From contig JAQWIR010000034.1 of the NCBI GenBank assembly GCA_029248755.1, forward strand, positions 1-64,000: a stretch of 64,000 nucleotides of DNA. The letters run 5' to 3'. Both the position numbers and the translations under genes were made by a program. Source of the DNA: Porticoccaceae bacterium (GTDB lineage: Bacteria > Pseudomonadota > Gammaproteobacteria > Pseudomonadales > Porticoccaceae). Below the pieces are notes generated by a model. The model worked only from the letters and a program-made list of their open reading frames with translations. It did no database searches and had not been told where the DNA came from. The stretch's first letter is position 1. Each line of letters opens with the position of its first letter. Below are positions 7,848-60,972 of the stretch, one piece after another.

Positions 7848-8000
7848 CACAATTTTCATCTATTATTTAATAGACTAGTATTTAATAGCCTAAATTGTAA
7901 ATTATGGTTTTTTTTAACATCGATAATTGTTTCTTTTAAAGAGACTCACTAGAATCGGTGTTTGTTTTTCTTATTGCTTAAATTTTCACAGAGGTCCAAC

Positions 8001-8954: not shown

Positions 8955-8985
8955 TTAGATGCTATTGGCTAATGAGGCTTAAGGT

Positions 8986-9912: not shown

Positions 9913-9925
9913 CTGGGAGGTAATA

Positions 9926-10417
9926 GTGAATCCAACTGACCCCCTTGCTCAATTAAAAGATATTCATTTGCCTGAAGCCATTTCGTGGTGGCCACTGGCT
10001 TTTGGCTGGTGGGTTATTGGTGCTACTTGCATCTTAATTATTGTTATTGCCACAAGACTTATCCTTAAGCATTTTTTTGCTCAACGCTATAGACGGCAGG
10101 CTTTAACCCAATTAAGAACCCTTACTAATTCAGCTCAACATCAGCGGCTTATGGACTTATTAAGTCTCTTAAAACAGGTGGCCAGTAGTGCTTACCCATT
10201 GCAAAATTTTGCTAGTTTAAGTCATAACGAATTTATTATATTTTTACAAAAGAGCAGTCCTAAAATGGTATTTGAAGCACTACCTGCGGACTGGGAACAA
10301 CTTTTATATGCCGAGAATACCACGGTGTCTTCAGATCTGGTTGACCAACTTGTTGTTCAAAGTCGATATTGGATTAAATCTCATTTTCGAGCTGAAAAGC
10401 TGGAGTATAACTGCTGA
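9926..10417 (+). CDS. DUF4381 membrane protein
   Basis: 163-residue protein with a single transmembrane segment (about 24-46, WWVIGATCILIIVIATRLIL) after the typical N-terminal DPLAQLKDIHLPEAISWWPL. This matches DUF4381, found only in MoxR-VWA operons; its function is unknown. The GTG start (9926) follows a strong GGGAGG. The stop codon TGA overlaps the next ATG (TGATG at 10415), indicating translational coupling. Confidence 0.9.
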   Translation: MNPTDPLAQLKDIHLPEAISWWPLAFGWWVIGATCILIIVIATRLILKHFFAQRYRRQALTQLRTLTNSAQHQRLMDLLSLLKQVASSAYPLQNFASLSHNEFIIFLQKSSPKMVFEALPADWEQLLYAENTTVSSDLVDQLVVQSRYWIKSHFRAEKLEYNC

Positions 10418-18646: not shown

Positions 18647-19261
18647 TTACTCTCCGCTATTTTTACTTAGAACTAAACTTTTTAACGCAAAAATTAGTCC
18701 CATTAAAAGCCCAGCCACTAGGCCGCTTAAGTGTGCCGCATTGGCTACGCCTATTCCCAGTGCAATTTCTAATACACCGGTCATACAGAGTACTAACCAA
18801 CCCACCATAAACCCCATTAAACCGCTGGGAAGTGGCGCAAAGTATTGCGGGGCAATTTTATGTTTTATCCAAAGATATCCCAATAATGCATATATCACAC
18901 CGGACATACCGCCAAAGTATATAGTTCCTGACCAATAGAACTGAGATATATTTGAAGCAGCGCCACTGATAATAACTAACAACAGTAAATGCACTGAGCC
19001 TTCTAAGGATTCAATTCTAGCGCCCAGCATGGCCAACCAAAGACCATTAAATACCAAATGTAAGATTCCAAAATGTAGGAAAATAGGGGTAAATATTCGA
19101 TAATATTGACCTTGATTTGGCTCGGCAAAGAATAAAGTATTTGTTATGGACGGACTCATTTCAACAATACTGGCACCCACTAAACAGCCAAGAATTAGAA
19201 GTGCCACAATTGGACTTTTCTTGATCCCATAGCGCCAACTAGCAATATTCCAAAAATTCAT
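18647..19261 (-). CDS. Rhomboid-family intramembrane serine protease (GlpG core type)
   Basis: 204 residues with about six transmembrane helices and the rhomboid catalytic set: HLVFNGLWL (the HxxxN in TM2), the nucleophile serine in FGGMSGVIYALLGY, and the catalytic histidine in NAAHLSGLVAGLLMG. The order and spacing resemble the E. coli GlpG membrane core, but the N-terminal cytoplasmic domain of GlpG is absent. It is unlikely to be a rhombosortase, because its motifs follow the GlpG pattern and no GlyGly-CTERM substrate was seen nearby. Confidence 0.9.
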   Translation of the reverse strand: MNFWNIASWRYGIKKSPIVALLILGCLVGASIVEMSPSITNTLFFAEPNQGQYYRIFTPIFLHFGILHLVFNGLWLAMLGARIESLEGSVHLLLLVIISGAASNISQFYWSGTIYFGGMSGVIYALLGYLWIKHKIAPQYFAPLPSGLMGFMVGWLVLCMTGVLEIALGIGVANAAHLSGLVAGLLMGLIFALKSLVLSKNSGE

Positions 19262-20369: not shown

Positions 20370-23300
20370 CTAATTGCGTCGCTGTCTGTAATTAAACAGT
20401 GTCAATAAAACCAGAAATACAAACAGGGTAATATCCGCAGGTTGCCCCTGAACGATTGAACAACCCCCCCTTTTCTTAAGCTTCACTAATAACCCAACTG
20501 GCCCAAGTTTAGCAGTGCCAAATTCATTGCTAATCTCCACCTCAATCGAGCTATTACTATACCATTTCGTGGTTGAAACAATTGCGGTATAGATACCCTG
20601 CCCCTGCTCTGAAATAGGCCCGATAGTAACTCCTCTACAGTAGTTGCAGGTAGCAGTAACATTAACCCCTTTTATGGGTGAGCCATCCTCACCCATGGCC
20701 TTTATAGTAATGATAGCTTTTTCACCAACAGTTAACTCTTTTCGATTGATTTCAAGGCTACTATATTCGGCAGATGGAGTAGATCCCATATTAGTATAAA
20801 CCGCAATACCACTTGGATCTGTTACTATTCCATCGGCAACACCATCAAAATCATTTGGGCCTCCATCTTCAATAAATAATTGGATGCAGGTATCTCCGGG
20901 TTTAATTCCGCTATCATATAGTTGACTGCCGGGTTCGGGGCAAGCACCATTTATTGCAGAAGCACTAAATAAAGAATTTTTGGCGTTTTCAATAAAGTTT
21001 TGCCAGCCAATATGTGGGCCCATATATTTTCTTAATACTTGACCTTCCTTAAAAGGTACCTCTAACGGTAGGCTTAGGTAATAAGAATCCCCAGCAATAG
21101 CTCCAGACACAGTAAAATCATAAAGACCAAAGGGGTAACTGTATTCTTTATCTAAGATATGATTTGAGTTACTAAGTTGAAGTTCAGTAATAACATTAAT
21201 AACCTGCTGCTTAGTTACCATTGCTGTATCTTCCGCATTCGAAAATGCTACTTCTCCCAACACTATTTTAGTGCCTACCTGGCTTTGTAAAACAATCGTT
21301 AAATCATCACTGATAGGCATTAAATTCGACTCAACAATATTATCCTTGTAATTAATGATGCCGTCATTATCTGAATCACCATAGCCCTCCTCAGCGTCCG
21401 ATACTCCGTCATTATCACTATCCACATCAATTGATAAAATAGGGGCAGCCTGCATTAATCGCAAATCAGTTGTTACTTGGGTTAAAGATGAGGGATTACC
21501 ATCATCTCTTGCTTTTGCTATAACCGTATAAACGTTTGGCGGAAGTTGGCTGGGATCAAATACAAAAATATTATTTCCCGAATTATCCAGGGATCTCTCA
21601 ATATCGACTAAATCAGCAATTGAAGAAAGCCAGCTAAATGAAAGGGTATCTGATGGATTAGGATCGGATATAAGTGCGGTTAAAGTAACCCGTCCTTTAT
21701 CTGAAGCAATAACTCGCCCTAAATTCCCCGCCTGCTCAACTTGAACCAAAATCTTAGGTGGTAGATTGCCATCTACAATCGAAATTTCTTGCTGTGTCAC
21801 CGAGCCCAACTCAGCATTACTCAGTTGATTGATTGTAATTTCAATTGTTTCATCATTTTCGAGCTCTTCATCCGGCAAAATTTCAATAGTGAAACTGCCC
21901 TCTCTACCCTTTTCAATAGTTAATAAGCCAGTGTCGTCAAGTACTCGATAATCAACACCCCTAGTAGCTGAGCCAGATATGGTATAGGGAATTTCAACCG
22001 GATAATCTGCTGCATTGCCACTGATCATCACTGTAACTTCAATCTCGCTATCCTCAACACTAATAGAAGATGGTGTCAGGTTGGCTAAGGGGATAACTTT
22101 AACCACTTGTACCGCTTTAGACTTATTTCCCTGAGTATCAGTAGCAGACCATGTAATCTCATGTCGACCAGAAGAAAATGGGCTAGCAGCACTGGAGGTC
22201 GGTTGTATAGCCACCTGAGAGTTATCTTTGGCTGTAGCCTCACCCAAATTTACAGCCGTTAAACGACCTGTTGAGGTTATTACAATATCATCCGGAATAT
22301 TCAACTGTGGCAACCCGGGGTTGGGGTTAACTCGAGGGTCTGTATCGGCTAAAAACTCATCTAAATTTGAAACCCCATCGCCATCAGAATCTGTATCCTT
22401 ATAAGATGAATTGTTTATATCAAAACCATATTCTGTCTCAAATTTATCAGGCATACCGTCACCATCGGTATCTGATGAATAATTAGGATTCAATTTAAAG
22501 GCATCTTCGGCAGAAGCCACGCCATCATTATCTTCATCTGGGTCACAGGCATCACCCGACAAATCAGAATCAAAGTCTGCCTGATTGGTATTAGCCACAT
22601 TTGGACAGTTATCGCCATTATCACCAATATTATCGGTGTCTGAGTCTGTGGTTTCATTGGCATCATTGGGGAAGCTATCAAAAACATCTTCCACAGTATC
22701 ACCATCTGTATCTAGGGTTAATAGCGCCGTTATTTTCTCAATAGTATCTATGGCTGACGGGTCTTGCTCGACGATCACAATATTGACTCTATCGATATTG
22801 CTTACAACTATATTGGTAAGACCCAAATTTTCATAATCAGTTAACACAGGCAATGGGCTGTTAGCGCTATCAGCGCTATAGGCTTGAATGATATGACTAG
22901 AGACAACTTTATTAGCCACCGCCTGAATTTTTTCGACCTTATCCATGGCCTGAGGATCACTGGCAATAATTTGCTGAATAGTTGGTAAATGGTCGTTGGT
23001 AACAGCCTCAATACCCATTAATTCAAGTTGATCTTTGCTCAGATTTTCTGTCTGTTCTATTGCCGAAAGTGCCGCATTAACTAAGGCCTGTAACTTGGTC
23101 ACAGTATCCACAGCCTCTTTATCGCCTAATGCAATCACATCACTCAATAAACTTATAACTGTTATATCATCAGATAAACCAGCAATCCCAATATTGCTGT
23201 AATCCTCAATAACCGGCGGGTTATTAACTGTGGTATCGTCAAACGCAAAATCAAGAATATTCGTGTAACTAATTACTAATTGCTGTATTTGAAGTTGATC

Positions 23301-26300
23301 CTCGACGCTAACAGCATCCAATATATCGCTGACTTCCGAATCTAGCGCATCATTAATTGAACCAATATTGGCCTCAGTAATGCCTGTAATACCAGCAGCC
23401 ATATAGAGGTTAGCCGTATTATTTTTGGTATCTTCAGCCAAATGACTAAGTGCCGACTTTAGTATCTGGGTAGATGAATTACTGCTTACGACAGACTCAT
23501 CTGTACCCTGATTATCGGTATAACTAGCAATAACCCTAATTTCTTTATTGATATCGGACTGGGTTAGTTGATAAGTCTCTTGGACAGCGCCCTGAATATT
23601 TTCATCATTGGCTTGCCACTGGTAGCTAATAGCATCCAAGCCATCGGCATCTGTTAGTGTATGACTGGCAGTTAAGATCTGATCCTGAGCCACTGTGCCA
23701 CCGATAGTCACATCACCCACTGGCGCATCATTAATATTGGCAACTGTGCTGGATGGCTCGCTGGCTTCAGACTCTGCTGTGTCCTGATTATCGGTATAGC
23801 TAGCAATAACTCTGATTGTCTTATCAACTTCATTTTGAGTGAGCAAATAAGTACTTTTATTAGCACCTTCAACATCCTCAGTACCGGCTTGCCACTGATA
23901 GCTAATAGCACCCAAGCCATCTATATCAGATAGATTATTGCCCGCTGTTAAGAGCTGACCCTGAGTCACCGTACCACTGATAGTAACCTTACCCTGGGGC
24001 GCATCGTTAATATTGGTAACTGCAGTGGTTGGAGCACTGGACACAGACTCGTCATTACCCTGATTATCGGTATAGCTAGCCCTAACTGTGATTACTTTAC
24101 CCACTTCATCTTGGGTGAGCTCATAAGTACTTTCGTTAGCGTCAACAATATTTTCACTATTTGCCTGCCATTGGTAGCTAATAGGCCCCAAGCCTTCTTG
24201 ATCAGAAAGATTATGACTTGTAGTCAAGGTTTGCCCCTGTTCGATAGAGCCATTGATAGTAACCGTACCCTGTGGCAAATCATTTTGTTGCGTTAAGCCT
24301 GGCGTTGCAAAAGTAGAAGCAAAAGAAGATGAAGTTGTAGTTTCACTGTCTGCAGCATCAGATGAGCCACTTGAGCCCTCGTCTATATTAGAATCTGAGC
24401 TACTTGAGTCTTCGAAAGTATTTCCTTGCCCAACCCCGGAAATGCCGTCAATCACACCAAAGAGCGACTCATCAGGGAACTCAGAATCAAATTCGCTACC
24501 AGGAGATTCATCTGGGGTTGACGGCTGACTGGTATAGTTATCTGTAACCCTAAGACTAATCGTGTCTAGAGGATTACCACTATTAATGGTATCAATAGCC
24601 ACTTGGGTCAATAAAATTTTCTGTTGTGCGGTATCAAGCACATATTGATTATTACTATTAGTGCCCTCTTCAAAGGTTACGGTTAATTCATCGCCATCGA
24701 GATCTTCAACCACATAACTAGCCGCCTCCGACATATTAGCAACCAAACCACCGGCATCCTCGACAAAGTTATTTACAGTTAATTCAATGGTTGGCAAATT
24801 ATTAACGTCAGCCACAATGATGGTAAATATATGGCTAACGGTCACCGTTCCATCATCAGCTTCAATCTCAACAGTATTTTCACCTACATGAACATGTAGA
24901 GGGATACCCGTCAAAACCCCTGTTGACTCATCAAAACTCAACCAACCAGGGGTATTATTGGCTCTAAGGCTGACTGTATCTTCCTCCAAATCATTGGTAG
25001 TGACTGTATAGCTGTAAAGTTGATTTTCAGTCGCAGCAGTAATTTCAGCACTGGTAATGGTTGGTGCATCATTAATCGCGGTTACAGAAATATCAATTAG
25101 TTGGGAACTTATACCGCCCAAATCATCAGTAACAGTCAGGGTAAATTGATCTGCACCAAAGTAATTGGCATTTGGACTGTATTGCCATTCACCAGTAGCC
25201 TGATTAATAGTAGCTGTGCCCTGTAAGGAATTTACCGAAATAGCAAAATAATCTCCACTAAGTCCCTCCACATCAGTCGCTATCAGCGAGCCGCTAATAT
25301 CACTGTCCTCATCACCAGTGCCATTTAAATCGCCAGAAAACTGCGCAACATCATTCACAGAATTGACCGTTAAAGAAATCACTTGAGTCGAAGTGGCACC
25401 GGCATCATCGGTAACCGTCACGATAAACATGTCTGCACCAAAGTAATCAGCATTTGGCTGGTACTGCCAATCACCACTGGACGCATCAATAGTGGCTGCG
25501 CCCTGTAAAGGGTTTAGCGTAACGGTAAAATAATTCCCATCTGTCAGGCCCTCCACATCCGTGGCTATCAGTGTACCGCTAATATCACTGTCCTCATCAC
25601 CTATGCCATGGGTTTTGCCAGAGAATTGCGTAGTATCATCCACAGAATTGACGGTTACAGAAATAATTTGAATCGAAGTACCCCCCAAATCATCCGTCAC
25701 AGTAACCGTAAATGTATCTGCACCAAAGAAATTATCAGATGGTGTGAACTGCCAATAACCACTGGACGCATCAATTGTGGCTATGCCATTTGAGGAATTT
25801 GCCGTAATAGCGAAATAATCACCACTCAGCCCCTCCACATCCGTGACTATAAGCGTACCGCTGATAACATTATCCTCATCACCTGCGCCATTTAAATCAC
25901 CCGCAAACTGAGCAATATCATCCACAGAATTGACCGTTATAGAAATCACTTGAGCCGAAGTACCACCCAAATCATCAGTCACAGTAATGGTAAATTGATC
26001 TGTACCAAAGTAATTGTCAGATGGTATGTACTGCCAATCCCCACTGGACGCATCAATAGTGGCTATGCCATTTGAGGAATTTGCCGTAATAGCCAAATAA
26101 TCACCACTCAGCTCCTCCACATCCGTGACTATAAGCGTACCGCTAATATCATTATCCTCATCACCAGTGCCATCTAAATCACCGGAAAATTGCGAAGGAT
26201 TATTTACTGTAATGTCAATGTTCCGCTCAGAAGTACTACCAGCATCATCAGTCACAGTTACGGTAAATTCATCATTACCAGAGTAATTGAGATTTGGCTG

Positions 26301-27383
26301 GTACTCCCAATCACCACTGGACGCATCAATAGTGGCATTGCCATCCGTGGGTTGTGCCGAAACACTGTAATAACTCCCATCTGTTAGGCCATCCTCATCC
26401 GTGGCTGACAGAGTGCCGGTAATAAGGCTATTAGAGTTACCTAACCCCGTCATTCCACTAATAAATTGTGTAGGGTCATCAACTTGAGCGACCGTTACAG
26501 AAATAATTTGATCGGTAGTACTACCCGAATTATCAGTAGCAGTCACGGTGAATTCATCATTACCAAAGTAATTAGCATTTGGGGTATAGTGCCACCAAGA
26601 ACCGGAAATAGTGGCTGAGCCGTGAACAGGCATTGTGTTAATTTCAAATTTTTGGATACCGTTATTATCTGTCGCAATTAACATACGGCTGATAACATTG
26701 TCCTCATCACCTGAACCACTGAATCCGCCAGTAAATTGGGTGGAATAGTCAAACACTCTCTGATTTAAGGTATAGCCATTGGGATGATAGAAATCACTAT
26801 TCATTATTATTAGATTGTACGGATCCGCAGTTGCATTTCTGGCAGCCGGTAAGACCATATAGATACCAGCATCAATTTCCCTTTCAATAAAAGCATCTCT
26901 CGAAAAGCCTTGAATAATATGATGTTGCTGCATCCCAAAATAAAAGCCTCCCCATGAGCCAGAACTATCATCTGTAGTTAACAATGTATGCTTAGTAGAC
27001 AACCCAATAGTATCAACATTGGTATAAAGCGACTCAACCTTAAAGAGAAATAGATATCCATCAGCTTGACTCGAAGTATCTAGTAAAATTCTAACGCGTT
27101 TTCTAGAATTAACAGAAAAGTAATATAGCTTCTCATTGATGTTTGTCATCTTGGAGTGATCAACATCATTATTGAAATGGCCGTCTCCATCGGACGGATA
27201 TTGGTATGATTCTTTCCAATTTCCCACATAAGTAAGTTTAGGTTCTTCAGCATTAACTTTTAATGTACTGAGAACAGCCAAAAATATAAAAAAATAAATT
27301 CCAACTTTTAGCGGTGTTTTTTTAGAAACAAAATACCTACAGGGCTTTGTAAAAAGCATCCTTAAAATTCCAAAGAACTTCAT
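20370..27383 (-). CDS. Giant repeat-rich surface protein with Cys-type C-terminal sorting signal
   Basis: 2337 residues. Order: a long signal peptide (1-45, VNA|EE); a PPC-like beta domain (about 46-210); six repeats of about 93 residues of the tandem-95/cadherin-like type (from about 216); a putative Ig-like domain and an acidic Ser-rich linker; three Ig-like repeats of about 92 residues; an alpha-helical segment; Asp-rich thrombospondin type 3 calcium repeats (encoded near 22370-22720); a HYR-like and a Calx-beta domain (near 21800-22010); a choice-of-anchor-U-like domain with a DGGPNDFDGVADG segment; and a C-terminal GGC motif, hydrophobic helix and Arg-rich end. This suggests a calcium-stabilised adhesin exported by Sec and anchored after C-terminal processing. 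A divergent CPBP protease gene begins 139 bases away. The adhesive role is inference. Confidence 0.9.
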   Translation of the reverse strand: MKFFGILRMLFTKPCRYFVSKKTPLKVGIYFFIFLAVLSTLKVNAEEPKLTYVGNWKESYQYPSDGDGHFNNDVDHSKMTNINEKLYYFSVNSRKRVRILLDTSSQADGYLFLFKVESLYTNVDTIGLSTKHTLLTTDDSSGSWGGFYFGMQQHHIIQGFSRDAFIEREIDAGIYMVLPAARNATADPYNLIIMNSDFYHPNGYTLNQRVFDYSTQFTGGFSGSGDEDNVISRMLIATDNNGIQKFEINTMPVHGSATISGSWWHYTPNANYFGNDEFTVTATDNSGSTTDQIISVTVAQVDDPTQFISGMTGLGNSNSLITGTLSATDEDGLTDGSYYSVSAQPTDGNATIDASSGDWEYQPNLNYSGNDEFTVTVTDDAGSTSERNIDITVNNPSQFSGDLDGTGDEDNDISGTLIVTDVEELSGDYLAITANSSNGIATIDASSGDWQYIPSDNYFGTDQFTITVTDDLGGTSAQVISITVNSVDDIAQFAGDLNGAGDEDNVISGTLIVTDVEGLSGDYFAITANSSNGIATIDASSGYWQFTPSDNFFGADTFTVTVTDDLGGTSIQIISVTVNSVDDTTQFSGKTHGIGDEDSDISGTLIATDVEGLTDGNYFTVTLNPLQGAATIDASSGDWQYQPNADYFGADMFIVTVTDDAGATSTQVISLTVNSVNDVAQFSGDLNGTGDEDSDISGSLIATDVEGLSGDYFAISVNSLQGTATINQATGEWQYSPNANYFGADQFTLTVTDDLGGISSQLIDISVTAINDAPTITSAEITAATENQLYSYTVTTNDLEEDTVSLRANNTPGWLSFDESTGVLTGIPLHVHVGENTVEIEADDGTVTVSHIFTIIVADVNNLPTIELTVNNFVEDAGGLVANMSEAASYVVEDLDGDELTVTFEEGTNSNNQYVLDTAQQKILLTQVAIDTINSGNPLDTISLRVTDNYTSQPSTPDESPGSEFDSEFPDESLFGVIDGISGVGQGNTFEDSSSSDSNIDEGSSGSSDAADSETTTSSSFASTFATPGLTQQNDLPQGTVTINGSIEQGQTLTTSHNLSDQEGLGPISYQWQANSENIVDANESTYELTQDEVGKVITVRASYTDNQGNDESVSSAPTTAVTNINDAPQGKVTISGTVTQGQLLTAGNNLSDIDGLGAISYQWQAGTEDVEGANKSTYLLTQNEVDKTIRVIASYTDNQDTAESEASEPSSTVANINDAPVGDVTIGGTVAQDQILTASHTLTDADGLDAISYQWQANDENIQGAVQETYQLTQSDINKEIRVIASYTDNQGTDESVVSSNSSTQILKSALSHLAEDTKNNTANLYMAAGITGITEANIGSINDALDSEVSDILDAVSVEDQLQIQQLVISYTNILDFAFDDTTVNNPPVIEDYSNIGIAGLSDDITVISLLSDVIALGDKEAVDTVTKLQALVNAALSAIEQTENLSKDQLELMGIEAVTNDHLPTIQQIIASDPQAMDKVEKIQAVANKVVSSHIIQAYSADSANSPLPVLTDYENLGLTNIVVSNIDRVNIVIVEQDPSAIDTIEKITALLTLDTDGDTVEDVFDSFPNDANETTDSDTDNIGDNGDNCPNVANTNQADFDSDLSGDACDPDEDNDGVASAEDAFKLNPNYSSDTDGDGMPDKFETEYGFDINNSSYKDTDSDGDGVSNLDEFLADTDPRVNPNPGLPQLNIPDDIVITSTGRLTAVNLGEATAKDNSQVAIQPTSSAASPFSSGRHEITWSATDTQGNKSKAVQVVKVIPLANLTPSSISVEDSEIEVTVMISGNAADYPVEIPYTISGSATRGVDYRVLDDTGLLTIEKGREGSFTIEILPDEELENDETIEITINQLSNAELGSVTQQEISIVDGNLPPKILVQVEQAGNLGRVIASDKGRVTLTALISDPNPSDTLSFSWLSSIADLVDIERSLDNSGNNIFVFDPSQLPPNVYTVIAKARDDGNPSSLTQVTTDLRLMQAAPILSIDVDSDNDGVSDAEEGYGDSDNDGIINYKDNIVESNLMPISDDLTIVLQSQVGTKIVLGEVAFSNAEDTAMVTKQQVINVITELQLSNSNHILDKEYSYPFGLYDFTVSGAIAGDSYYLSLPLEVPFKEGQVLRKYMGPHIGWQNFIENAKNSLFSASAINGACPEPGSQLYDSGIKPGDTCIQLFIEDGGPNDFDGVADGIVTDPSGIAVYTNMGSTPSAEYSSLEINRKELTVGEKAIITIKAMGEDGSPIKGVNVTATCNYCRGVTIGPISEQGQGIYTAIVSTTKWYSNSSIEVEISNEFGTAKLGPVGLLVKLKKRGGCSIVQGQPADITLFVFLVLLTLFNYRQRRN
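20373..20471 (-). other. C-terminal protein-sorting signal (JDVT-CTERM-like)
   Basis: This stretch encodes residues 2305-2337 of the giant surface protein. It has the tripartite form: a short motif with Gly-Gly-Cys (2306-2308, Cys codon 20460-20462) followed by ADIT (2316-2319), a hydrophobic helix (about 2318-2331), and the basic end NYRQRRN. Among published Cys-containing sorting signals (MYXO-, JDVT-, Synerg-, CGP-CTERM), JDVT is the closest because of the D-x-T after the Cys. Those signals are predicted to be cut by CPBP-type glutamic proteases, one of which is encoded next door. Confidence 0.65.
23455..24280 (-). repeat. Three tandem Ig-like coding repeats
   Basis: Three consecutive coding repeats of about 275 bases in the giant surface protein. 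Each encodes a G-x-VTI-x-G start, a DGL-x-x-ISYQWQA core and an ASYTDNQ ending. Similarity is visible at both DNA and protein level, pointing to internal duplication. Confidence 0.85.
25075..26740 (-). repeat. Six tandem-95/cadherin-like coding repeats
   Basis: Six repeats of about 278 bases, each encoding QF-x-G near the start, then GDEDNDISGTLI-like, ATIDASSGDWQY-like and TVTVTDDLGGTS-like segments. Several neighbours share long identical DNA stretches, so the block is prone to copy-number change and to misassembly from short reads. Confidence 0.88.
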
Positions 27384-30092: not shown

Positions 30093-32711
30093 CTACTGAG
30101 TATTTGCATCTGGTGTTGGGTCATAAAGAATTTTGCCATGCAATACTGAAGGTTTACCATCATTGATAATATTAACTTTAGGCTTAGTCCCAATTATATC
30201 AAAAGCATCTTTATCATCCTTGATATAAAGTGAATTACTGGAAAGCAACTTATCTTTACTGAAAGAGTAATTTTGCTTACCTTTCATGTCGGGAGCCTTA
30301 GCAAGCCATTCATCACCATCTAAAGCCTTAACCTTAAACTTATTGCCATCAGCATCCACAAGCTCAACACCATCTGGGATAACAAATCGATGTAAAAACC
30401 TGTAACTATCTTTCCACTCATTTGTATATTCTCCCATATCCTTATCGTTTAAAGAATCGTAAATATATCCTGGAATACCTCTTAATCGATCATCAAAATA
30501 CTCTAAAGCAAAGCGTTTGCCAGCAACAGCAGGATCACTATCCATTGGCGCTCTGTAGTAAAGGGTTTTAGGAAGATCAAATATTAATGGTTTACCCCTC
30601 TCAGTAAGCACTTCAAAACTAGGCTCAACCTCAAATCGCAAAACATAGTAGGTATCTAAACGCTCATAGTAACGCTCTAGACAATAAAGGTTTTCGTTTT
30701 CACACTTAAGCTTGTCGATGTCGCTTTCTTTAATCAAAACTCCGACCTTAACACCATATGCCATAGCCGACCAAGAGCCCTCAAATCTTATATTCTCTAA
30801 CTGATCATAGTAGTCTTCATTCGGATTGAGAAATTCACTTAAAGCGTTTTCTTTAAAAATTTGATTACTCGAAGCAATAGTATCCTGATAAATTTTATTT
30901 CCGGAAATTTTGTACTTTGGCAAATTTGCTAGTGCCAACGACTCATTAAGTGTTATATGGGGACTTGCAACCATAACCAGACTAGACTCTTTCTTGTCAT
31001 TTTCTGCAAGTTTCTGCTTAACCTGATCAAAAGTTTGCTTAACTGAATTCACTGTTAAGCATTTATCCACACAGAACAAATCCAAATCTTCCAACTCTGA
31101 AAGGTTTACTGTACTTATAATCCCTGTTGTGACTGCCGTGTTATCAGTCGGGTCCCTCAGGGCATTCCCAGTAATTTTGTATGAATGACCAAGCTGCGGA
31201 GAATAAATATAAAAATAATCATCATCTGAGAAAATATTAACCAAGTTAGCTATATCAAAAGTATATTTCTCTCTATCCTCATCCTCTATGGCTTCACGCC
31301 TATGGACAGACTGACCATCCTCGTCCTCATTAAAAATATCTCTGTGAGTAAGAGCAATCGTCCCTGTTTTGGCATCATAGACCCCAACATAGCTGCCTGA
31401 CATTATATTGGTTTCTTTTATAAGACTGAGATTCAAATAGTGCTTAGAGATTTCAAAGGGTATAGCATCCAGACTATTTAGAGAAAGCTTTCTATCCTCA
31501 TATTTTTGAACACTAAACTGTGTTGGCTTTAAGCGATAAGTTGTATCACTGCTATCTTCATCATCATAGACTTGTTGCTTAAATAGCATGTTTTCATTGA
31601 CCAAATGAGGATCATCAACCCATACATAGCGTGAACCTGCATAGGCATAAACTGTAACCTTATCACCATCATTATCAGTTGCTTCAGCCTGCAGAGAGAG
31701 TTGAGTTAAACCTGTGTCCAATCTTGAGCCATCTTGGTTATATACCCCGTAGTTAAACACATGTCGACGCGCATTTTTCCTGTCGGTTGAATAACAAACT
31801 TCATCAGCGCTTATACCAAGTTCGTTATATTCGGCAGCTGACACCTGTTCTTTTGTGTATAAATCCTTTTTGTCAGCCTTGGGCTTGACAGATATCTTTT
31901 GCACTTCAGCCAATTTTTTACAGTAGAATTTATTGTTATTATTTATATAAAACTGATAAAAGCCCTGATAGAAAGAGCTTAGCTCATCTTTTTCTTCGTC
32001 ATATTCATGTATATCCAAATCGGCTTCAAAACCTCCTGTGATATCGCCATTCTCAAGGTAAGTTGCAGTCATTCTATCTGTATATTCCAAAGCCTCTTCA
32101 ATAAAAGCAATAGTCGAACCCTCAGCTTTGAGTATACCCCAAGCTTGGAATTCGTCGGTTGGGGTATTTGGATGTTGCTCATCAGCTAGAACAGTAAAGT
32201 GCATTTCAAATTCGCCATTGGGCGCGCTATCTGAAACCTCTGCTGTCTGCTGGATTCTGGCGAAGACCTTAGCCTCCATTTCGGGATCATCATGTCCTAT
32301 CCAAGCATGGGTTATAACAGGGTCAGCAGTTGAATTGCGAGTAACATTTAATAAGGACTCCAAGGTTGGCTTCTGGTCATTTTTCTTTTCTTCAGAGCTG
32401 CTACCAGTAGCGGCCTGTGTCTCTTTTTCATCTACTTTTTGGGCTTTAGCCGAGTATTGTTCTTCAGAAATATCCTCACTATCCTCAAAACAATCATCTA
32501 GGTAAAAAGCAGCTAAATAATAACCATCATTTACATAGGCATCTGGCCTCATAGAGGAGAGCATACAGACAATAAAATTTGCGAATTTTAGTGAATCATT
32601 CAAGGGGTCTTCTACATAAAAATACTGCTCATCTTTTTCAAAATCTGTAGCTGCCTGAATAGAACCTGAAAACCCTACAAAAAAAAGAACAATTAGTAGT
32701 ATATTTTTCAT
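30093..32711 (-). CDS. Unrecognised large secreted protein
   Basis: 872 residues with a clear Sec signal peptide (1-20, ending IQAA|TDF). I do not recognise a family. The mature chain is rich in D, E, K and Y, has no membrane segment, and contains scattered cysteines that could pair (CML, DDCFE, FYCKK, EVCYS, LFCVDKCL, LKCEN, YCLER). A charged linker of about 40 residues (near 85-125) separates a small N-terminal part from the rest. The ATG (32709-32711) lies 6 bases after a 50-residue lipoprotein gene whose last codons provide its GGAG Shine-Dalgarno, so the two are coupled. A strong terminator follows. It is probably periplasmic or surface-located; nothing in the sequence indicates enzymatic activity. 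Confidence 0.8.
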   Translation of the reverse strand: MKNILLIVLFFVGFSGSIQAATDFEKDEQYFYVEDPLNDSLKFANFIVCMLSSMRPDAYVNDGYYLAAFYLDDCFEDSEDISEEQYSAKAQKVDEKETQAATGSSSEEKKNDQKPTLESLLNVTRNSTADPVITHAWIGHDDPEMEAKVFARIQQTAEVSDSAPNGEFEMHFTVLADEQHPNTPTDEFQAWGILKAEGSTIAFIEEALEYTDRMTATYLENGDITGGFEADLDIHEYDEEKDELSSFYQGFYQFYINNNNKFYCKKLAEVQKISVKPKADKKDLYTKEQVSAAEYNELGISADEVCYSTDRKNARRHVFNYGVYNQDGSRLDTGLTQLSLQAEATDNDGDKVTVYAYAGSRYVWVDDPHLVNENMLFKQQVYDDEDSSDTTYRLKPTQFSVQKYEDRKLSLNSLDAIPFEISKHYLNLSLIKETNIMSGSYVGVYDAKTGTIALTHRDIFNEDEDGQSVHRREAIEDEDREKYTFDIANLVNIFSDDDYFYIYSPQLGHSYKITGNALRDPTDNTAVTTGIISTVNLSELEDLDLFCVDKCLTVNSVKQTFDQVKQKLAENDKKESSLVMVASPHITLNESLALANLPKYKISGNKIYQDTIASSNQIFKENALSEFLNPNEDYYDQLENIRFEGSWSAMAYGVKVGVLIKESDIDKLKCENENLYCLERYYERLDTYYVLRFEVEPSFEVLTERGKPLIFDLPKTLYYRAPMDSDPAVAGKRFALEYFDDRLRGIPGYIYDSLNDKDMGEYTNEWKDSYRFLHRFVIPDGVELVDADGNKFKVKALDGDEWLAKAPDMKGKQNYSFSKDKLLSSNSLYIKDDKDAFDIIGTKPKVNIINDGKPSVLHGKILYDPTPDANTQ

Positions 32712-54688: not shown

Positions 54689-56235
54689 TAAACACCACCC
54701 AGTTGAGGGTGAAGCCTACCTGGGTTTCGCATCAGTGTCAGTGCATTAACATAGGCTTTTGCACTGGCCAAAAGAATATCCGTATCAGCACCCTGACCAT
54801 TGATAATTCGTCCCTCTTTTTCTAGGCGAACGGTGACCTCACCTTGCGAATCAGTGCCCTCGGTGACCGCATTAACGGAATATAACTGCAACGTAGTTTC
54901 ACTATTAATCAATTTTTCAATGGCTTTAAAAATAGCATCGACCGCCCCGTCTCCACTGGCTTCGGACTGATGATCCTTGCCCTTATAGCGAATGGATATT
55001 TTTGCAGTGGGCAATTGACCGGTTTTACTTAAGACCTCAAGATCATTAACTGTTATAGCATCGTCCTCCGCAACTATCTGTACATCGGAAACTAGCGCCT
55101 GAAGGTCTTCATCAAATATCTCACGCTTTTTATCGGCCAGCTCTTTAAATCGGACAAAAGCCTGATTAAAGTCATCTTTGCTGTCAAAAGTGATACCCAA
55201 CTCTTCGAGACGCGAAGCAAAAGCCGCTCGACCGGATAACTTTCCCAGAGATAACTTATTAGTACTCCAGCCAACATCTTCAGCCTTCATGATTTCATAG
55301 GTTTCACGGAATTTTAATATCCCGTCCTGATGAATTCCCGATTCATGAGCAAAGGCATTAGCGCCCACAATGGCTTTATTGGGCTGAACAGGAAAACCTG
55401 TGACTGAGGAAACCAATCTTGAGATAGGCACAATCTGAGTAGTATCGATTTTAGTTTGCACTGGAAAGATATCTTTACGCGTACGAATGGCCATCACTAG
55501 TTCTTCTAAAGAGGCATTACCTGCCCTTTCGCCCAAACCATTAATGGTACATTCAACCTGTCTTGCACCCGCCTTAACCGCGGCCAAGCTATTGGCCACC
55601 GCAAGCCCTAGATCATTATGGCAATGAACAGAGAAGATGGCTTTATCAGCATTAGGCACAGTATTTAAAAGCCGTTGAATCATATCGCTATATTCACTGG
55701 GGTCGGTATAACCTACGGTGTCTGGCAAATTAATAGTCTTTGCGCCGGCATTAATAACTGCTTCGGTGACACGACACATAAAATCGAATTCTGTGCGACT
55801 GGCATCTTCTAGGGAAAACTCTACATCATCAATTAAGCCTCGGGCTAATTTAACCGCAGCTATAGCCTGATCCATTACCTGATCGGGCTCCATTTGAAGC
55901 TTGTATTTCATATGTATTGGCGAGGTCGCAATAAACGTGTGTATGCGAGCTGCTTCTGCACCTTTAAGTGCCTCAGCGGCCGCTTCAATATCACCTTTTA
56001 TCGCTCTAGAAAGACTGCAGATACGACTTTCTTTTACCGTGCTGGCAATTGCTTGCACAGCGTCAAAATCACCCTGACTAGATATAGCAAAGCCCGCCTC
56101 GATAACATCCACTTGAAGCTTTTCAAGCGCCTTGGCAATACGCACTTTTTCATCTTTTGTCATCGATGCACCAGGGCTCTGCTCACCATCGCGCAAGGTT
56201 GTATCAAAAATAACTAAATTATCTTTTGAATTCAT
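54688..56235 (-). CDS. leuA: 2-isopropylmalate synthase
   Basis: First committed enzyme of leucine synthesis. 515 residues with the catalytic TIM barrel ([64 protein letters not shown]) and the C-terminal leucine-sensing regulatory domain (about 390-515). It is the first gene of a leuA-holD-rimI run. Confidence 0.97.
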
Positions 56236-56613
56236 GGTTATGTTCCTGACTCACTGCTATCAGTAAAGAATAACAGTATTGTAAAACTTATTTGCCCATA
56301 AGGGCATAGAATTCCGCTCTATAGCTTAACTATTACAAGCAGAAATGAGATTTATTGAGGTGAAACAGATTAGTAGCCCCTCAGGGCAGGAGGCGAACGA
56401 CAAGAGACACCAAGCTTGTATTTGCTTGGGCATAAGTAACAATAATTGATGAATAGTTTCTAATCATGGCTAGACAATAGCAAACAAAGTAAAAATAATC
56501 GAGTTTATGGCGCTAAATAAATTAATCCAAAAAATCTTTTTAGTACTATTTATAAACTAAACTAATATATATATGAATAGTTACTGCCTAAATCAAGGGC
56601 AATCATTAAATCA
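56236..56613 (-). other. Long leuA upstream region with hairpins
   Basis: 378 bases between divergent leuA and the sigma54 activator. On the leuA side three small hairpins are visible: CCAAGC/GCTTGG (56410-56415, 56424-56429), GCCC/GGGC (near 56376-56387) and GCCC/GGGC (56294-56305). A 35-codon open frame (56326-56433) contains several Leu codons but has no ribosome-binding site. A leucine attenuator is possible but not supported by a terminator with a T run. No gene is called. Confidence 0.4.
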
Positions 56614-57600
56614 GTGGTCATAGGGATCTTGGCTATCGGCTTACTCAGGGAGAGCGTCATTAAAGCTCAAACACAATCAGATAAAACCCAATTTTTTCAT
56701 GGTATTTTGTCGCGTAATAGCGCGATGAAAAAGCTTTTCGATAATATCAAAAGAGCCGCTAAATCAGATATTTCAATCTATATATCTGGTGAAACTGGTG
56801 TAGGCAAAGAACTAGTCGCTCGCGCTATACATGCTGAAAGTAACAGGTCCAGCCAACCTTTTGTAGCCGTTAATGTGGCTAATTTTTCTAGTGATTTAAT
56901 TGAATCTCAATTATTTGGTCATAAAAAGGGTGCTTTTACCGGTGCAGTTAATAGCAGCGCTGGTCTTATGCAGGCGGCCGCTAAAGGAACACTTTTTTTG
57001 GATGAAGTCACTAGCCTGCCGGTTAATACACAGGCTAAGTTACTTAGAGTACTTCAAGAACGACAGTACTACCCTGTGGGTGACATTAACCTACAGGAAT
57101 TTTCAGCAATAGTAGTATCCGCGTCAAACTTAAGTTTTGAGGATGCTGTTGAGCACCATCAATTTCGTGATGATCTACGCTATCGGCTTGAAGTAATTCA
57201 CCTGCATATTCCGCCTTTAAGAGATCGTAGAGATGATATTTTACTCCTGTTCAGACATTTCTTAGAACAGGCATCTGATGTTAAACAATGGACTATTAGT
57301 CCTTCTGTAGAATCGCATTTAATTGGCTATGACTGGCCTGGCAATGTTAGGGAATTAGAAAATTGTGCCAATTTTACCGCGGCAATGGCGATCGAAAAAA
57401 ATTTAAAAGTGAGTGATTTACCAGAAAATATACAATCTGGGCTGAAGGCACAACAGGTTAAACCAAAGCCACTACTAGATAGGCCGCTTATAAAAAAAAC
57501 CTTGGCTTTAAATAGTGGTAACCGCACCTTAGCTGCAAAAAATTTAGGTATTAGTCGAATGACATTATGGCGAAAAATGAAACTCTATAACCTTGTTTAA
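56614..57600 (+). CDS. Sigma54-dependent transcriptional activator without receiver domain
   Basis: 328-residue enhancer-binding protein. The AAA+ domain has Walker A GETGVGKE (59-66), the sigma54-contact loop GAFTGA (106-111), Walker B GTLFLDEV (125-132), the arginine-finger region RDDLRYRLEV and the WPGNVRELEN sensor. A C-terminal Fis-type helix-turn-helix (about 303-328) ends the chain. Only about 30 residues precede the AAA+ domain, including a short hydrophobic stretch (VVIGILAIGLL), so there is no receiver, GAF or PAS input domain. The GTG at 56614 is the only standard start after an in-frame stop at 56578. A -24/-12 promoter lies directly downstream, making the subunit-chaperone-secretin genes the obvious target. 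Confidence 0.92.
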   Translation: MVIGILAIGLLRESVIKAQTQSDKTQFFHGILSRNSAMKKLFDNIKRAAKSDISIYISGETGVGKELVARAIHAESNRSSQPFVAVNVANFSSDLIESQLFGHKKGAFTGAVNSSAGLMQAAAKGTLFLDEVTSLPVNTQAKLLRVLQERQYYPVGDINLQEFSAIVVSASNLSFEDAVEHHQFRDDLRYRLEVIHLHIPPLRDRRDDILLLFRHFLEQASDVKQWTISPSVESHLIGYDWPGNVRELENCANFTAAMAIEKNLKVSDLPENIQSGLKAQQVKPKPLLDRPLIKKTLALNSGNRTLAAKNLGISRMTLWRKMKLYNLV

Positions 57601-57607
57601 AGTTTCT

Positions 57608-57636
57608 TTGTTACTAGCAATGATACAAATTGTTAC
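57608..57636 (+). promoter_or_regulatory. Candidate activator-binding repeats (UAS)
   Basis: TTGTTAC occurs at 57608-57614 and again at 57630-57636, start-to-start spacing 22 bases (about two helical turns). The second overlaps a small palindrome ACAAATTGT (57625-57633). The pair lies about 80-105 bases upstream of the -24/-12 element, the usual distance for sigma54 enhancers. The match to the neighbouring activator is inference. Confidence 0.35.
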
Positions 57637-57712
57637 ATATATAATTCTTTAAAATATAGATATCTCCTATAAAACTTCAGTTATTTCAACGGTTAACAAC
57701 AAACTATGCATA

Positions 57713-57729
57713 TTGGCATATATCTTGCT
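57713..57729 (+). promoter_or_regulatory. Sigma54 (-24/-12) promoter for subunit-chaperone-secretin genes
   Basis: TTGGCATATATCTTGCT carries GG at 57715-57716 and GC at 57727-57728 with exactly 10 bases between them. This matches the TGGCAY-N5-TTGCW consensus at nearly every position. Initiation is expected near 57740, giving a leader of about 70 bases before the ATG at 57811. Confidence 0.8.
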
Positions 57730-57810
57730 GTATTTAATATTGAGTAATTCAAAAATTGTATTTTTTAAAGGAATAAAATTTAGTTAACTATTTTGACAGG
57801 AGTCACAACC

Positions 57811-58485
57811 ATGAAAATTTTCAAATTAATTCTCGTCAGCTTTACAAGCTTGTTTTTCTTTTTTTCACAATCAGCTTTTGCCACCTATGGCGTAGATGAT
57901 GTTTCCAATGACAGTAGCGAAAAAACTACCAACGTTGGTGCGGAGGTAGAGGTCAATGAATTTGTGCTATTAGATGCAATGGAGAGTATCGAGCTCTACT
58001 ACTTTCCATACAGTGCTACAGATTCTGATTTAGCTAACTTAGAGGATGTACCCGGTGGTGCTGGATCGGTGTATGTTGGTGGCGGTGAAATAAGATGGCA
58101 CGCCAATATTGATAGCACTATTTCAATTGACGACTTTACCCTAACCAATATAGATACAGGCATCACTGAACGCAATGAAATTGCTGACACCTCTGTTATT
58201 GTATACGTAGATCAGAGCTTTTACAGTGGCGCAACTGCAGTTGCAGCTTTGGATTTTGATGAAACTAGTGGCGCTACGCATGCGGATATGAGTGGGGATA
58301 TGAATGTAGCCTATGCCTTAAGCGGGGATATCTCGTCTCAAGCATTTAATACCGATACAGGTTCCACTGATTTTGCGACTAAATTTTACTTCCGCGCAAG
58401 CTTGGCTGCAGATGGTTCTGTTCAGGCAGCTGGTGATTACCGAGCAACAGCAACCGTCAGAGCGGCTGCTACCGTTTCAAGCTAA
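57811..58485 (+). CDS. Secreted beta-rich protein, possible pilin/fimbrial-type subunit
   Basis: 224 residues with a signal peptide (1-24, SAFA|TYG). The mature protein has about 200 residues, is acidic, low in Lys/Arg and free of cysteine. It is rich in T, S, A, D and G with alternating beta-strand patterns, and ends YRATATVRAAATVSS, resembling the C-terminal strand of chaperone-dependent fimbrial or DUF4402-like subunits. The ATG at 57811 has AGGAG 8 bases upstream; a TTG at 57793 would precede that site. It is the first gene after the sigma54 promoter, and a strong terminator follows it. A polymer-forming or surface role is inference; no family is confidently recognised. Confidence 0.78.
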   Translation: MKIFKLILVSFTSLFFFFSQSAFATYGVDDVSNDSSEKTTNVGAEVEVNEFVLLDAMESIELYYFPYSATDSDLANLEDVPGGAGSVYVGGGEIRWHANIDSTISIDDFTLTNIDTGITERNEIADTSVIVYVDQSFYSGATAVAALDFDETSGATHADMSGDMNVAYALSGDISSQAFNTDTGSTDFATKFYFRASLAADGSVQAAGDYRATATVRAAATVSS

Positions 58486-58504
58486 TAACTAATCAGCAAC
58501 CTAT

Positions 58505-58538
58505 AAAAAGACTAGCGCGCATATGCGCTAGTCTTTTT
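58505..58538 (+). terminator. Strong intercistronic terminator after subunit gene
   Basis: Near-perfect hairpin: AAAAAGACTAGCGC (58505-58518) and GCGCTAGTCTTTTT (58525-58538) around a 6-base loop, ending in a T run. It lies between the subunit gene and the chaperone gene on the same strand. If read through partially, it would make the subunit much more abundant than the chaperone and secretin. Confidence 0.88.
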
Positions 58539-58617
58539 TATTTATAAGTAAATAGCCCAAAGCTAAATGTGCTATTCTTTTATTTATGGATAATTTAACC
58601 AAGGAATAGGTTTTCTA

Positions 58618-59532
58618 ATGAAAATAATTAAATCAAACAAGGTTGCATATAGTTACAGTCTTTTGATCGCTTTTTGGGCTACATTACTTATAGCCCTGCC
58701 TATAAATACACATGCTAGCGTGTCTCCAACCCGCATTAAAATTGAAGCTAAACCCCGCGACAAGGTAACTTTTAATCTTGTGGTAAAAAATAAAAAAACC
58801 ACACCAAGAGACTATAAAATATCCTATTCCTATTACATTCAAGACATTAATGGCTTTCAAAAAGAAGTTAAATTAGATGACCAAGCTAATGAGGGACCAT
58901 GGGACTGGATAAAATTGGATAGTAGCGAAACATTTAAAATTAACGGCAAAGAAGACTTGCCCATTGAGGGCATAATAAGAATACCCAGCCGAAAAAGTCA
59001 TGGCTTTCACAATATATTGATCACAGTAACCGAGATGACACCCAGAAAAAAAACCGGTGTTACTTTAAATTACGCCACGGCTAGTTTGATTGAATTAACC
59101 GTGACTGGATCGAAGAAACGCCCCAAAAACGCTATTCTAAACCCAGAGATTAAAATGGATGAAGAATCGGGTACGAGCATGGTGCATCTGGACTTTGATA
59201 ACCAATCTCCTTACAAAGGAAGACTGTTTATGGAGATGCACTTACGTCTCAACAAGCGACTAATTGCTAAAATACCTTTACTCAATGAACAATCTCATAG
59301 AAGCGAGATGATATATACCTCCGTTTTTCCCAATAATTTGGTACATGTCACTGGGAAAATCGATAAAAAACTGCAACCAGGCGATTATCAAATGCGCATT
59401 GTTGGCAAGTTTAATGACGTGAGACTGAGAAGTTTTAATCACCAGTTGAGCATAGATGAATCTGGCCAATCGGTAGTTGAGGATAAGACTACTGAGAACC
59501 CTAGTGATTCTTCACAAAAAGACACAGGATAA
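58618..59532 (+). CDS. Periplasmic Ig-fold chaperone-like protein
   Basis: 304 residues with a signal peptide (1-33, THA|SVS). The mature N-terminus SVSPTRIKIEAKPRDKVTFN followed by LVVKNKKTTPRDYKISYSY is the pattern of PapD-like or DUF916-like domains, in which the first strand and a following N-x-x-x-x-P strand build an Ig fold. A second beta domain follows (about 150-285), then a Ser/Asp/Lys tail. Conserved basic residues (R38, K40) could play the role of the PapD Arg/Lys pair that anchors a subunit C-terminus. It has AAGGAATAGG before its ATG. It sits between the subunit and secretin genes. Confidence 0.72.
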   Translation: MKIIKSNKVAYSYSLLIAFWATLLIALPINTHASVSPTRIKIEAKPRDKVTFNLVVKNKKTTPRDYKISYSYYIQDINGFQKEVKLDDQANEGPWDWIKLDSSETFKINGKEDLPIEGIIRIPSRKSHGFHNILITVTEMTPRKKTGVTLNYATASLIELTVTGSKKRPKNAILNPEIKMDEESGTSMVHLDFDNQSPYKGRLFMEMHLRLNKRLIAKIPLLNEQSHRSEMIYTSVFPNNLVHVTGKIDKKLQPGDYQMRIVGKFNDVRLRSFNHQLSIDESGQSVVEDKTTENPSDSSQKDTG

Positions 59533-59631
59533 GGGCTTATTACCCAATGTAAAGAATTAGCCTTTTGCTCAATGATAACGGTTGAGACTCAATGTCTAGG
59601 ATTAGCGTGATACAGGAGTGTTTGATCACAG

Positions 59632-60972
59632 ATGATTGTGAAATTCAGCCCAATATATCTTCGCCTTGGTCAGATCATTATTTTGTGCAGTCTTGTACTA
59701 TTTTCTGCCTGTAGTCATTTAGACATTTACTCAGATACCTATAAGCAGGAAGATACTCTACAGCTTGAATCAGTAAACCCTAAAATTGATAAATTATTGC
59801 CACAAAAATCCAATTTATCCAAGGGGAAACCACTTACACCCCACTCCCCTATTTACTGCAGTAAAAGTGGCGAATACCCGCACCAGCTACCTTATATAGC
59901 CTTATCCTTTTATGAGGCAAGCGTGCGCGATATATTTGCAGAAATTAGCCTGCTGATTGAATTCCCTATAGTGATCGATGAATTTGTCGAAGGTGTTGTT
60001 ACTATTGAAGCTGACAATATACGCCTCGATAAGGCGCTCGATCTTATCTCTGCCAGCAGCAATTTAAGCTATAGATTCTTCAATGAGTACATTTTAGTTG
60101 GGCTTAATTCTGTCGACACCCCTAGCTGGTCATCGCTATCAGTTAACTGCCGTTACTGGCCTAAATATGTCAGCGCGGAACTATTATTTAATTCAATGGG
60201 AGAGATTGAAAAACAATTTGTTTTTTACCCGAAGGGAGCGAATTATTTAACCATCAGTGCACCACCGGGCATTCAAAAAAAAATACAAGAAAGCATCATG
60301 GTGTTCGATCATTCGCCTGGACAGGTACTGCTGGAGCTAAGCATTGTAGAAATTACTACTACAGATATTAGCCGCCTCGGTATTCGCTGGCACGACAACA
60401 ATGCTACATTGGCTCAAGGTATAATTTCCGATCAACCGGATTTAATCAAGCAGTTGCAAATACTGGCGCGCTCTGGGCAAACTCAAATTAAAGCCATGCC
60501 ATCATTACTTTCGGCTCATGGTAAAAAAGCTAAATTTTCTACCACCCAACAGGCTAATCAGTGGCAAGTGGATGAAGAAGATGAACAATCCACCAACAGC
60601 TCACAAAGCGGTAAAGAAGAGGAAAGAGAAGTTTTGGAATATGGGGTTAAGATGGAGATTATCCCCTATATTATTGATAACGAAACGGTAACTTTAAATA
60701 TTATCGATGCATCAGTGAGTGATATTGTGGTGGGTGGCGATGGCTATTTGCAGCTGATTAAACATAAGGTATCCAATCAGGTTAGCGTAAAAAATGGAGA
60801 ATTTATTTTTCTAGGTGGCATGATGCAACAATCGGCTATAAAGCATACGGAAGGATTGCCAAAATTAAAAAAATTACCATTTTTAGGCTGGCTATTTGGT
60901 CAGGAAAAGCAACGAAACTCTGACTATGAGGTGTGGATAATGATCAGACCCTCCATCCTCAAAAAATATTAA
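59632..60972 (+). CDS. Short lipoprotein secretin (GspD/PilQ/MshL superfamily)
   Basis: 446 residues. Lipoprotein signal with lipobox FSAC (Cys27), so it probably does not need a pilotin. An STN/N0 domain (about 89-158, LSFYEASVRDIFAEISLLI) and one N1-like domain (about 170-225) precede the secretin core (about 228-445), which has VLLELSIVEITTTDISRLGI, GVKMEIIPYI, the gate-region NQVSVKNGEFIFLGGMMQQ and LPKLKKLPFLGWLFGQ. An acidic Gln/Ser insert (about 305-330) lies within the core. It is shorter than GspD (about 650) or PilQ and lacks N2/N3 repeats. No ATPase or inner-membrane platform gene is nearby. AGGAG lies 13 bases before the ATG. Confidence 0.92.
   Translation: MIVKFSPIYLRLGQIIILCSLVLFSACSHLDIYSDTYKQEDTLQLESVNPKIDKLLPQKSNLSKGKPLTPHSPIYCSKSGEYPHQLPYIALSFYEASVRDIFAEISLLIEFPIVIDEFVEGVVTIEADNIRLDKALDLISASSNLSYRFFNEYILVGLNSVDTPSWSSLSVNCRYWPKYVSAELLFNSMGEIEKQFVFYPKGANYLTISAPPGIQKKIQESIMVFDHSPGQVLLELSIVEITTTDISRLGIRWHDNNATLAQGIISDQPDLIKQLQILARSGQTQIKAMPSLLSAHGKKAKFSTTQQANQWQVDEEDEQSTNSSQSGKEEEREVLEYGVKMEIIPYIIDNETVTLNIIDASVSDIVVGGDGYLQLIKHKVSNQVSVKNGEFIFLGGMMQQSAIKHTEGLPKLKKLPFLGWLFGQEKQRNSDYEVWIMIRPSILKKY

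Follow-up and report, generated by a model that had tools for sequence, protein, structure and literature searches.

A sigma54-associated gene cluster pairs a two-immunoglobulin-domain chaperone-like protein with a lipoprotein secretin in two gammaproteobacterial families

We analysed positions 1 to 64,000 of contig JAQWIR010000034.1 from a Porticoccaceae bacterium (GenBank assembly GCA_029248755.1; this whole 64-kb stretch is called the window). It carries a four-gene cluster in which a sigma54 activator, a secreted acidic protein (the subunit), a periplasmic chaperone-like protein with two immunoglobulin (Ig)-like domains and a lipoprotein secretin are encoded side by side. The composition is real, the unit is conserved in two families, and by testable defining features the cluster fits neither the chaperone-usher pathway nor the known secretin systems. 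Secretins are generally described as gates that need an ATP-driven machine, and strand-lending chaperones as the partners of ushers; a partnership between the two is not known. No description of a chaperone combined with a secretin without an usher was found among the literature matches listed, as judged from the titles and opening lines of abstracts of mostly open-access papers. We propose, with a probability that we put at about one half (0.52), that the cluster encodes a dedicated export pathway, switched by sigma54, in which chaperone and secretin together deliver a fibre or coat to the cell surface.

Results

The four genes stay together in other genomes

The original prediction, made from the letters of the window alone, held that four adjacent, co-oriented genes form a unit that should stay together in other genomes. 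All four open reading frames (ORFs) are present on one strand, separated in order by gaps of 210, 132 and 99 bases (Table 1). In the window's genus, which we call the SAR92-type genus, the order activator-subunit-chaperone-secretin is intact in five genomes (the window's, G005, G010, G036 and G009). A sixth, G035, keeps subunit, chaperone and secretin without an activator at the locus; this genome is 78% complete, and the activator was not searched for elsewhere in it. The genes thus did not come apart: five other genomes keep the order subunit-chaperone-secretin, four of them with the activator, which excludes a chance neighbourhood.

A more distant cluster was found in G223, a member of another gammaproteobacterial family. 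The order there is the same, beginning with a receiver-bearing sigma54 response regulator, followed by a secreted protein of 149 amino acids, a chaperone homologue and a secretin, and then by an additional fifth gene. The chaperone homologue (385 amino acids) is 24% identical to that of the window over 271 residues (E = 4e-18) and has an additional C-terminal stretch. Its weak matches to Shiga toxin A models of NCBIfam (E = 0.007-0.07; 12-16 bits against cut-offs of at least 600) were dismissed as chance. The two secretins are 33% identical over 386 residues (E = 5e-70), and a profile comparison found no similarity between the two subunits. In the fifth protein (443 amino acids), the N-terminal domain is 44% identical to the 149-residue protein over 140 residues, and the C-terminal region matches LruC (E = 3.9e-28) and DUF4842 (E = 1.7e-14). 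Tip adhesins of chaperone-usher pili have a two-domain layout, and by analogy the fifth protein might be tip adhesin-like.

Plain inheritance accounts for part of the synteny, since five of the six same-genus clusters occupy a single chromosomal site. This is what would be expected if the genes were neighbours by descent only, with a secretin that serves uptake or export in general and two unrelated envelope proteins, the subunit and the Ig protein. However, the cluster of G009 lies between different genes, the same order recurs in G223 of another family, and a scar in G008 spans the entire cluster. The G223 locus in particular already largely refutes neighbourhood by descent alone, which we regard as very improbable.

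In G008 the usual site lacks the cluster (L055 7150-7640). The intergenic stretch there matches window positions 56211-56396 (90%), 56474-56568 (75%) and 60865-60968 (75%); the window DNA between the matched segments is therefore missing, and about 36 residues of the secretin's end persist, a remnant that the secretin search also picked up. One deletion spanning the cluster is the simplest reading, although not the only one. Conserved order, two chromosomal sites and the scar bear out the claim that the genes form a unit.

The cluster, known from a few marine bacteria and one relative in another family, is rare in the samples searched. Among 94 relatives, the window's genome counted, the chaperone occurs in six, all of them among the 50 same-genus genomes. 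The subunit and a close secretin (70-82% identical) occur in the same six, and distant secretins of any kind bring the matches to 91 of the 94. Matches were found in 6 of 112 genomes of a family sample, 2 of 369 of a class sample (the window's genome and G223, which was not in the search profile) and 1 of 299 of a phylum sample (the window's own). Searches around G223 gave 1 of 76 for its relatives and 1 of 4 for its order. The very high bit scores of profile members arise by construction and were not used as evidence. Scanning genome contigs with a single chaperone sequence gave no match, and the chaperone alignment A1 gave five loci, which we take to be five genomes already found. No match came from a plasmid search with the G223 chaperone or a viral-contig scan with alignment A4. 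A plasmid search with the G223 secretin returned 965 records, all below 60% identity; H7 (Haliovirga), with the best E-value among the 15 plasmid-search matches listed, is annotated as a type II secretion system (T2SS) and was set aside; another match, H13, carries no annotation.

In comparisons among four of the six genomes, ratios of nonsynonymous to synonymous substitution rates (dN/dS) came to 0.15-0.29 in the subunit gene, 0.09-0.12 in the chaperone gene, 0.04-0.08 in the activator gene and 0.07-0.08 in the secretin gene, compared with 0.02-0.03 in the neighbouring leuA-type gene. They could be computed in 15 of 24 cluster-gene pairs, dS being saturated in the other 9, and are rough because every computed dS exceeds 1. 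At this rough level, the cluster genes are under purifying selection, and the subunit is the fastest-evolving of them.

The secretin stands apart from those of known systems

As predicted, the last gene encodes a short lipoprotein secretin. Its core matches PF00263 (E = 6.6e-30), and an STN match (PF07660, E = 1.2e-4) falls under its cut-off. The lipobox cysteine and two further cysteines are invariant in all seven aligned cluster secretins, the window's included. Because it has this cysteine and no long extension after the core, the protein is likely to target itself as a lipoprotein.

A tree of 21 secretin cores places the seven from the clusters on one side of a branch with support 100/99, and 14 others, comprising GspD, PilQ, HofQ, Tad, short type IV pilus (T4P) and filamentous-phage-like secretins, on the other. 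The tree is midpoint-rooted, has long branches and was built without MshL and type III secretion system (T3SS) secretins. Ten of the 14 compared secretins were family-scanned and four exceeded an NCBIfam cut-off, the remaining labels coming from length, similarity and neighbours. By this tree, the cluster secretin is not of the GspD, PilQ, HofQ or Tad lineage. The window's secretin scores 219 bits in BLASTP against that of G223 and 89 bits against the best other secretin fetched. In the class profile search, the members scored 842 and 642 bits (both are in the profile) and the next protein 115 bits. The window's secretin lies below all nine NCBIfam secretin cut-offs listed, which is weak evidence because 6 of 10 other scanned secretins do so too.

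The original prediction had named an orphan MshL or PilQ of a T4P locus as a competing identity. The tree speaks against PilQ; the one point against MshL is its score, 92 bits where the cut-off is 250. From the tree and the neighbourhoods, an orphan T2SS or T4P secretin appears unlikely. Nine secretin stretches were compared, L055 being the scar site and L049, at a contig edge, staying unplaced. By reading, the neighbourhoods are T4P-type (L048, L050), T2SS (L056), Tad (L051, L052, L053) and filamentous-phage-like (L054), and no similar chaperone was seen beside the secretins of L048-L054 and L056. The L054 locus (7724-10049) has a short secretin beside a gene read as a Zot/pI-like ATPase; it is a filamentous prophage-like locus in a genome related at the level of the taxonomic order. 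With T2SS, type IV and Tad pili, the cluster secretin shares the PF00263 core, the STN/N0-like domain and the lipoprotein signal; unlike in those systems, no ATPase, platform or prepilin genes were recognised in the cluster.

Usher, ATPase and platform genes are absent from the cluster

Usher models PF00577 and PF16967 gave no match in any of the seven cluster genomes, in line with the predicted lack of an usher. Among 14 controls, PF00577 matched one (Escherichia coli) and PF16967 two (E. coli and Sulfolobus acidocaldarius, of which one exceeded the cut-off). Because the cluster genomes are 78-100% complete, an usher could have been missed in single genomes. The cluster thus differs from the chaperone-usher pathway (PapD/FimC, Caf1M, CfaA, CsuC), with its outer-membrane usher of the PF00577 or TcfC-type PF16967 family, in having a secretin in the usher's place.

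The predicted absence of an ATPase and platform holds for the cluster and not for the cell. All seven genomes have T2SSE-type ATPase matches, 23 in total, and none of these lies on a cluster-bearing contig; the cluster therefore lacks an ATPase of its own in cells that have some. No platform gene was recognised among the neighbours read in several genomes, the second site included. The arrangement that defines T2SS and T4P, a cognate ATPase and an inner-membrane platform encoded with the secretin, is not seen here. By ORF reading, the window's genome encodes what looks like a complete T2SS, including a GspD (649 amino acids) that belongs to it, and, with T2SSE matches in addition, a type IV-like pilus locus that likewise includes a secretin. 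A second secretin locus of this genome (L114, G000:C38:42000-50500) has a short lipoprotein-like secretin, a T2SSE ATPase and platform and pilin-like genes, and reads as a type IVb-like pilus.

T2SS, T3SS and T4P secretins work with ATPase-driven machines. It is therefore conceivable that the cluster secretin gives the genome's T2SS (or T4P) machine another way through the outer membrane. That machine would supply the ATPase, with the subunit as substrate and the Ig protein as its escort. The ATPases in all seven genomes and the complete-looking T2SS would allow this. However, both the T2SS and the type IV-like pilus already possess a secretin, and the cluster secretin is far shorter than GspD (446 versus 649 amino acids) and groups apart from the 14 others compared. 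At the cluster's second site, neither platform nor ATPase was recognised, and that contig has no T2SSE match. We consider such a loan unlikely; if it were true, the novelty would fall to a new variant of secretin-dependent secretion.

The modelled chaperone-like protein most resembles WxLIP

The window's chaperone-like protein matches no Pfam or NCBIfam family at E <= 1. The prediction of an Ig-fold periplasmic chaperone was upheld at the level of fold, as an AlphaFold2 model of medium confidence has two Ig-like domains; the best structural match, top in both programs and over both domains, is the Gram-positive WxL-interacting protein (WxLIP). WxLIP stands one step above other Ig proteins in this search, PapD-type chaperones match too, and the search does not exclude families that it did not list. 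The relative placing of the two domains differs from that in WxLIP or is wrongly modelled (root-mean-square deviation 17.3). In sequence, one of the seven cluster chaperones has a WxLIP_PGBD match (E = 0.092) and none matches the Pfam pili-chaperone family. One chaperone also has an S-layer-type match (E = 2e-5; 23 bits, cut-off 110), which was taken as a shared Ig-like fold only.

These results place the protein near two known groups. With chaperone-usher systems it shares an Ig-like fold, as far as the model goes. With the Gram-positive WxL-WxLIP (DUF916-DUF3324) clusters it shares, in the model, two tandem Ig-like domains of the WxLIP fold; unlike WxLIP, it has neither the Pfam WxLIP domain nor a C-terminal membrane helix, its C-terminus reading as hydrophilic, and here there is no WxL motif, the host is Gram-negative with a secretin, and the sequence link is very weak.

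One published suggestion is that WxLIP binds WxL on the cell wall and stabilises it there (PMC10599100). By extension, the cluster might make no fibre at all: the subunit would be a secreted protein or a coat protein, in monomeric form, to which the Ig protein would stay bound as a surface adaptor, as the two-domain structural match could suggest. Against this, the protein lacks the membrane helix and the window's subunit lacks the WxL motif as read from their sequences. The hairpin behind the subunit gene (see below), which may leave the subunit in excess, suits a polymer, and the two-domain protein of G223 looks like a fibre tip. We judge this reading, a monomer with a bound adaptor, to be improbable.

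The subunit is secreted and acidic

Of the predicted secreted, beta-rich subunit with a fimbrial-type C-terminus, the secreted part stood, since the N-terminus reads as signal-peptide-like. The beta-rich and fimbrial part was not borne out: the structure model has a mean predicted local distance difference test (pLDDT) score of 33, no Pfam or NCBIfam family or significant PDB sequence relative was found for the subunit, and neither the window's subunit nor that of G223 matches a fimbrial family. The mature part has 33 Asp and Glu against 7 Lys and Arg and no Cys. Orthologues in five genomes are 56-63% identical, and an acidic subunit accompanies a basic chaperone in all six.

A sigma54 promoter and upstream repeats accompany the activator

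The first gene encodes a sigma54 AAA+ domain (Sigma54_activat, PF00158, E = 3.9e-60) with GAFTGA and Walker A motifs and a Fis-type helix-turn-helix (HTH_8, E = 1.5e-11). The family scan found no receiver domain in it, as predicted. Its true start may lie slightly 3' of the GTG, and orthologues in four other genomes are 63-68% identical. The predicted -24/-12 promoter was also recovered: TTGGCATATATCTTGCT agrees with 11 of the 13 consensus positions scored. Two sites in the window score at least 11, one per strand, and TTGGCATATATCTTGCT is one of them. An AAA+ protein with a GAFTGA loop and an HTH beside such a promoter belongs with the sigma54-dependent activators.

A GG-N10-GC promoter scoring 10-12 of 13 precedes the subunit gene in all five same-genus loci that bear the activator. 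At the activator-less G035 locus (L010), the best score is 9, about 300 bases upstream, with none near the gene. A pattern scan did not find the strict promoter at the G223 locus, where TTGGCACG with a poor -12 partner is discernible by eye.

TGTTAC/TGATAC half-sites occur in 2-5 copies in all six activator-bearing loci, G223 included, and not at the G035 locus. In the window the steps between them are 12 and 10 bp, and they lie some 80-100 bp 5' of the promoter; steps are mostly 10-12 bp elsewhere and 8-16 bp in G223. The observed number was reached in 0 to 4.3% of 2000 single-base shuffles per locus, fractions that flatter the half-sites because the pattern was picked after viewing the alignment of loci. 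From these patterns, the half-sites are probable activator-binding repeats. In G035 (L010 2000-2455), activator gene, promoter and repeats are jointly missing while subunit, chaperone and secretin are intact; either control was lost there or another promoter has taken over.

A hairpin with a T-run follows the subunit stop codon in all six same-genus loci. Stem sequences differ between loci, except that L008 and L009 have one in common, and the G223 hairpin is GC-rich and has no T-run. The hairpin is likely to raise transcript levels of the subunit gene above those of the chaperone and secretin genes, which would leave the subunit in excess over both proteins.

Table 1. Features of the cluster in the window
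Feature	Position	Strand	Basis
Cluster of four genes	56614-60972	+	all ORFs present, adjacent, one strand
Sigma54 activator, receiver-less	56614..57600	+	PF00158, HTH_8
Putative activator-binding repeats, three TGTTAC/TGATAC half-sites	57609..57636	+	sequence pattern
-24/-12 sigma54 promoter TTGGCATATATCTTGCT, GG-N10-GC	57713..57729	+	consensus score
Secreted acidic subunit, 224 amino acids	57811..58485	+	signal-peptide-like N-terminus, orthologues
Terminator-like hairpin and T-run, 3' of subunit gene	58505..58538	+	14-bp perfect stem
Two-Ig-domain periplasmic chaperone-like protein, 304 amino acids, basic	58618..59532	+	WxLIP/PapD-like fold in model
Lipoprotein secretin, 446 amino acids	59632..60972	+	lipobox Cys27, STN/N0-like domain, secretin core

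Neighbouring genes

The cluster is flanked by housekeeping-type genes, identified by reading rather than by family scan. One side has a 2-isopropylmalate synthase-type gene, the other a CDP-alcohol phosphatidyltransferase-type gene and genes of the ilvC/ilvH/ilvI type. Elsewhere in the window, a 2337-residue repeat protein (20370-27383, minus strand) ends in Gly-Gly/Cys, a hydrophobic helix and a basic tail, which we take to resemble a GlyGly-CTERM sorting signal. A rhomboid-type membrane protease (18647-19261, minus strand) lies nearby and could presumably process it. An 872-residue protein with a signal-peptide-like start (30093-32711, minus strand) is flanked by metabolic genes.

Discussion

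The favoured reading, an export pathway that joins a chaperone to a secretin under sigma54 control, can be laid out as a series of steps. The activator would bind the TGTTAC-type repeats and switch on the -24/-12 promoter. The subunit would be overproduced owing to the terminator-like hairpin after its gene, enter the periplasm by Sec and be held there by the two-Ig-domain chaperone. The chaperone probably donates a beta-strand to it, in the manner of PapD-type chaperones and in the way predicted for WxLIP and WxL. Chaperone and subunit would then be handed as a complex to the self-targeting lipoprotein secretin, which would replace the usher, and the subunit would emerge at the surface to form a fibre or coat. 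The tip, in the second family, would be the protein that joins a subunit domain to an LruC region. Strand complementation, passage through the secretin, polymerisation and a supply of energy from folding rather than from ATP are steps that we infer.

Two observations weigh against this proposal. ATPase-bearing systems are encoded elsewhere in the genome, and the T2SS ATPase could be lent to the cluster. In addition, the structure model of the subunit is of low confidence.

A wider and more tentative suggestion is that subunits pass from a strand-lending chaperone to a secretin ring with no dedicated ATPase. This would make a third route for outer-membrane fibres, with a WxLIP-type fold shared with Gram-positive bacteria, so that surface proteins would be handled by strand-lending in bacteria with one membrane and with two. 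We hold it possible but doubtful. If true, the cluster would offer a way to ask if the energy of folding is enough by itself for export through a secretin and if an usher can be done without, and a set of three to five genes is small enough for transfer to a laboratory strain. If the likeness to WxLIP reflects common descent, it would connect the assembly of surface proteins in Gram-positive bacteria with that in Gram-negative bacteria.

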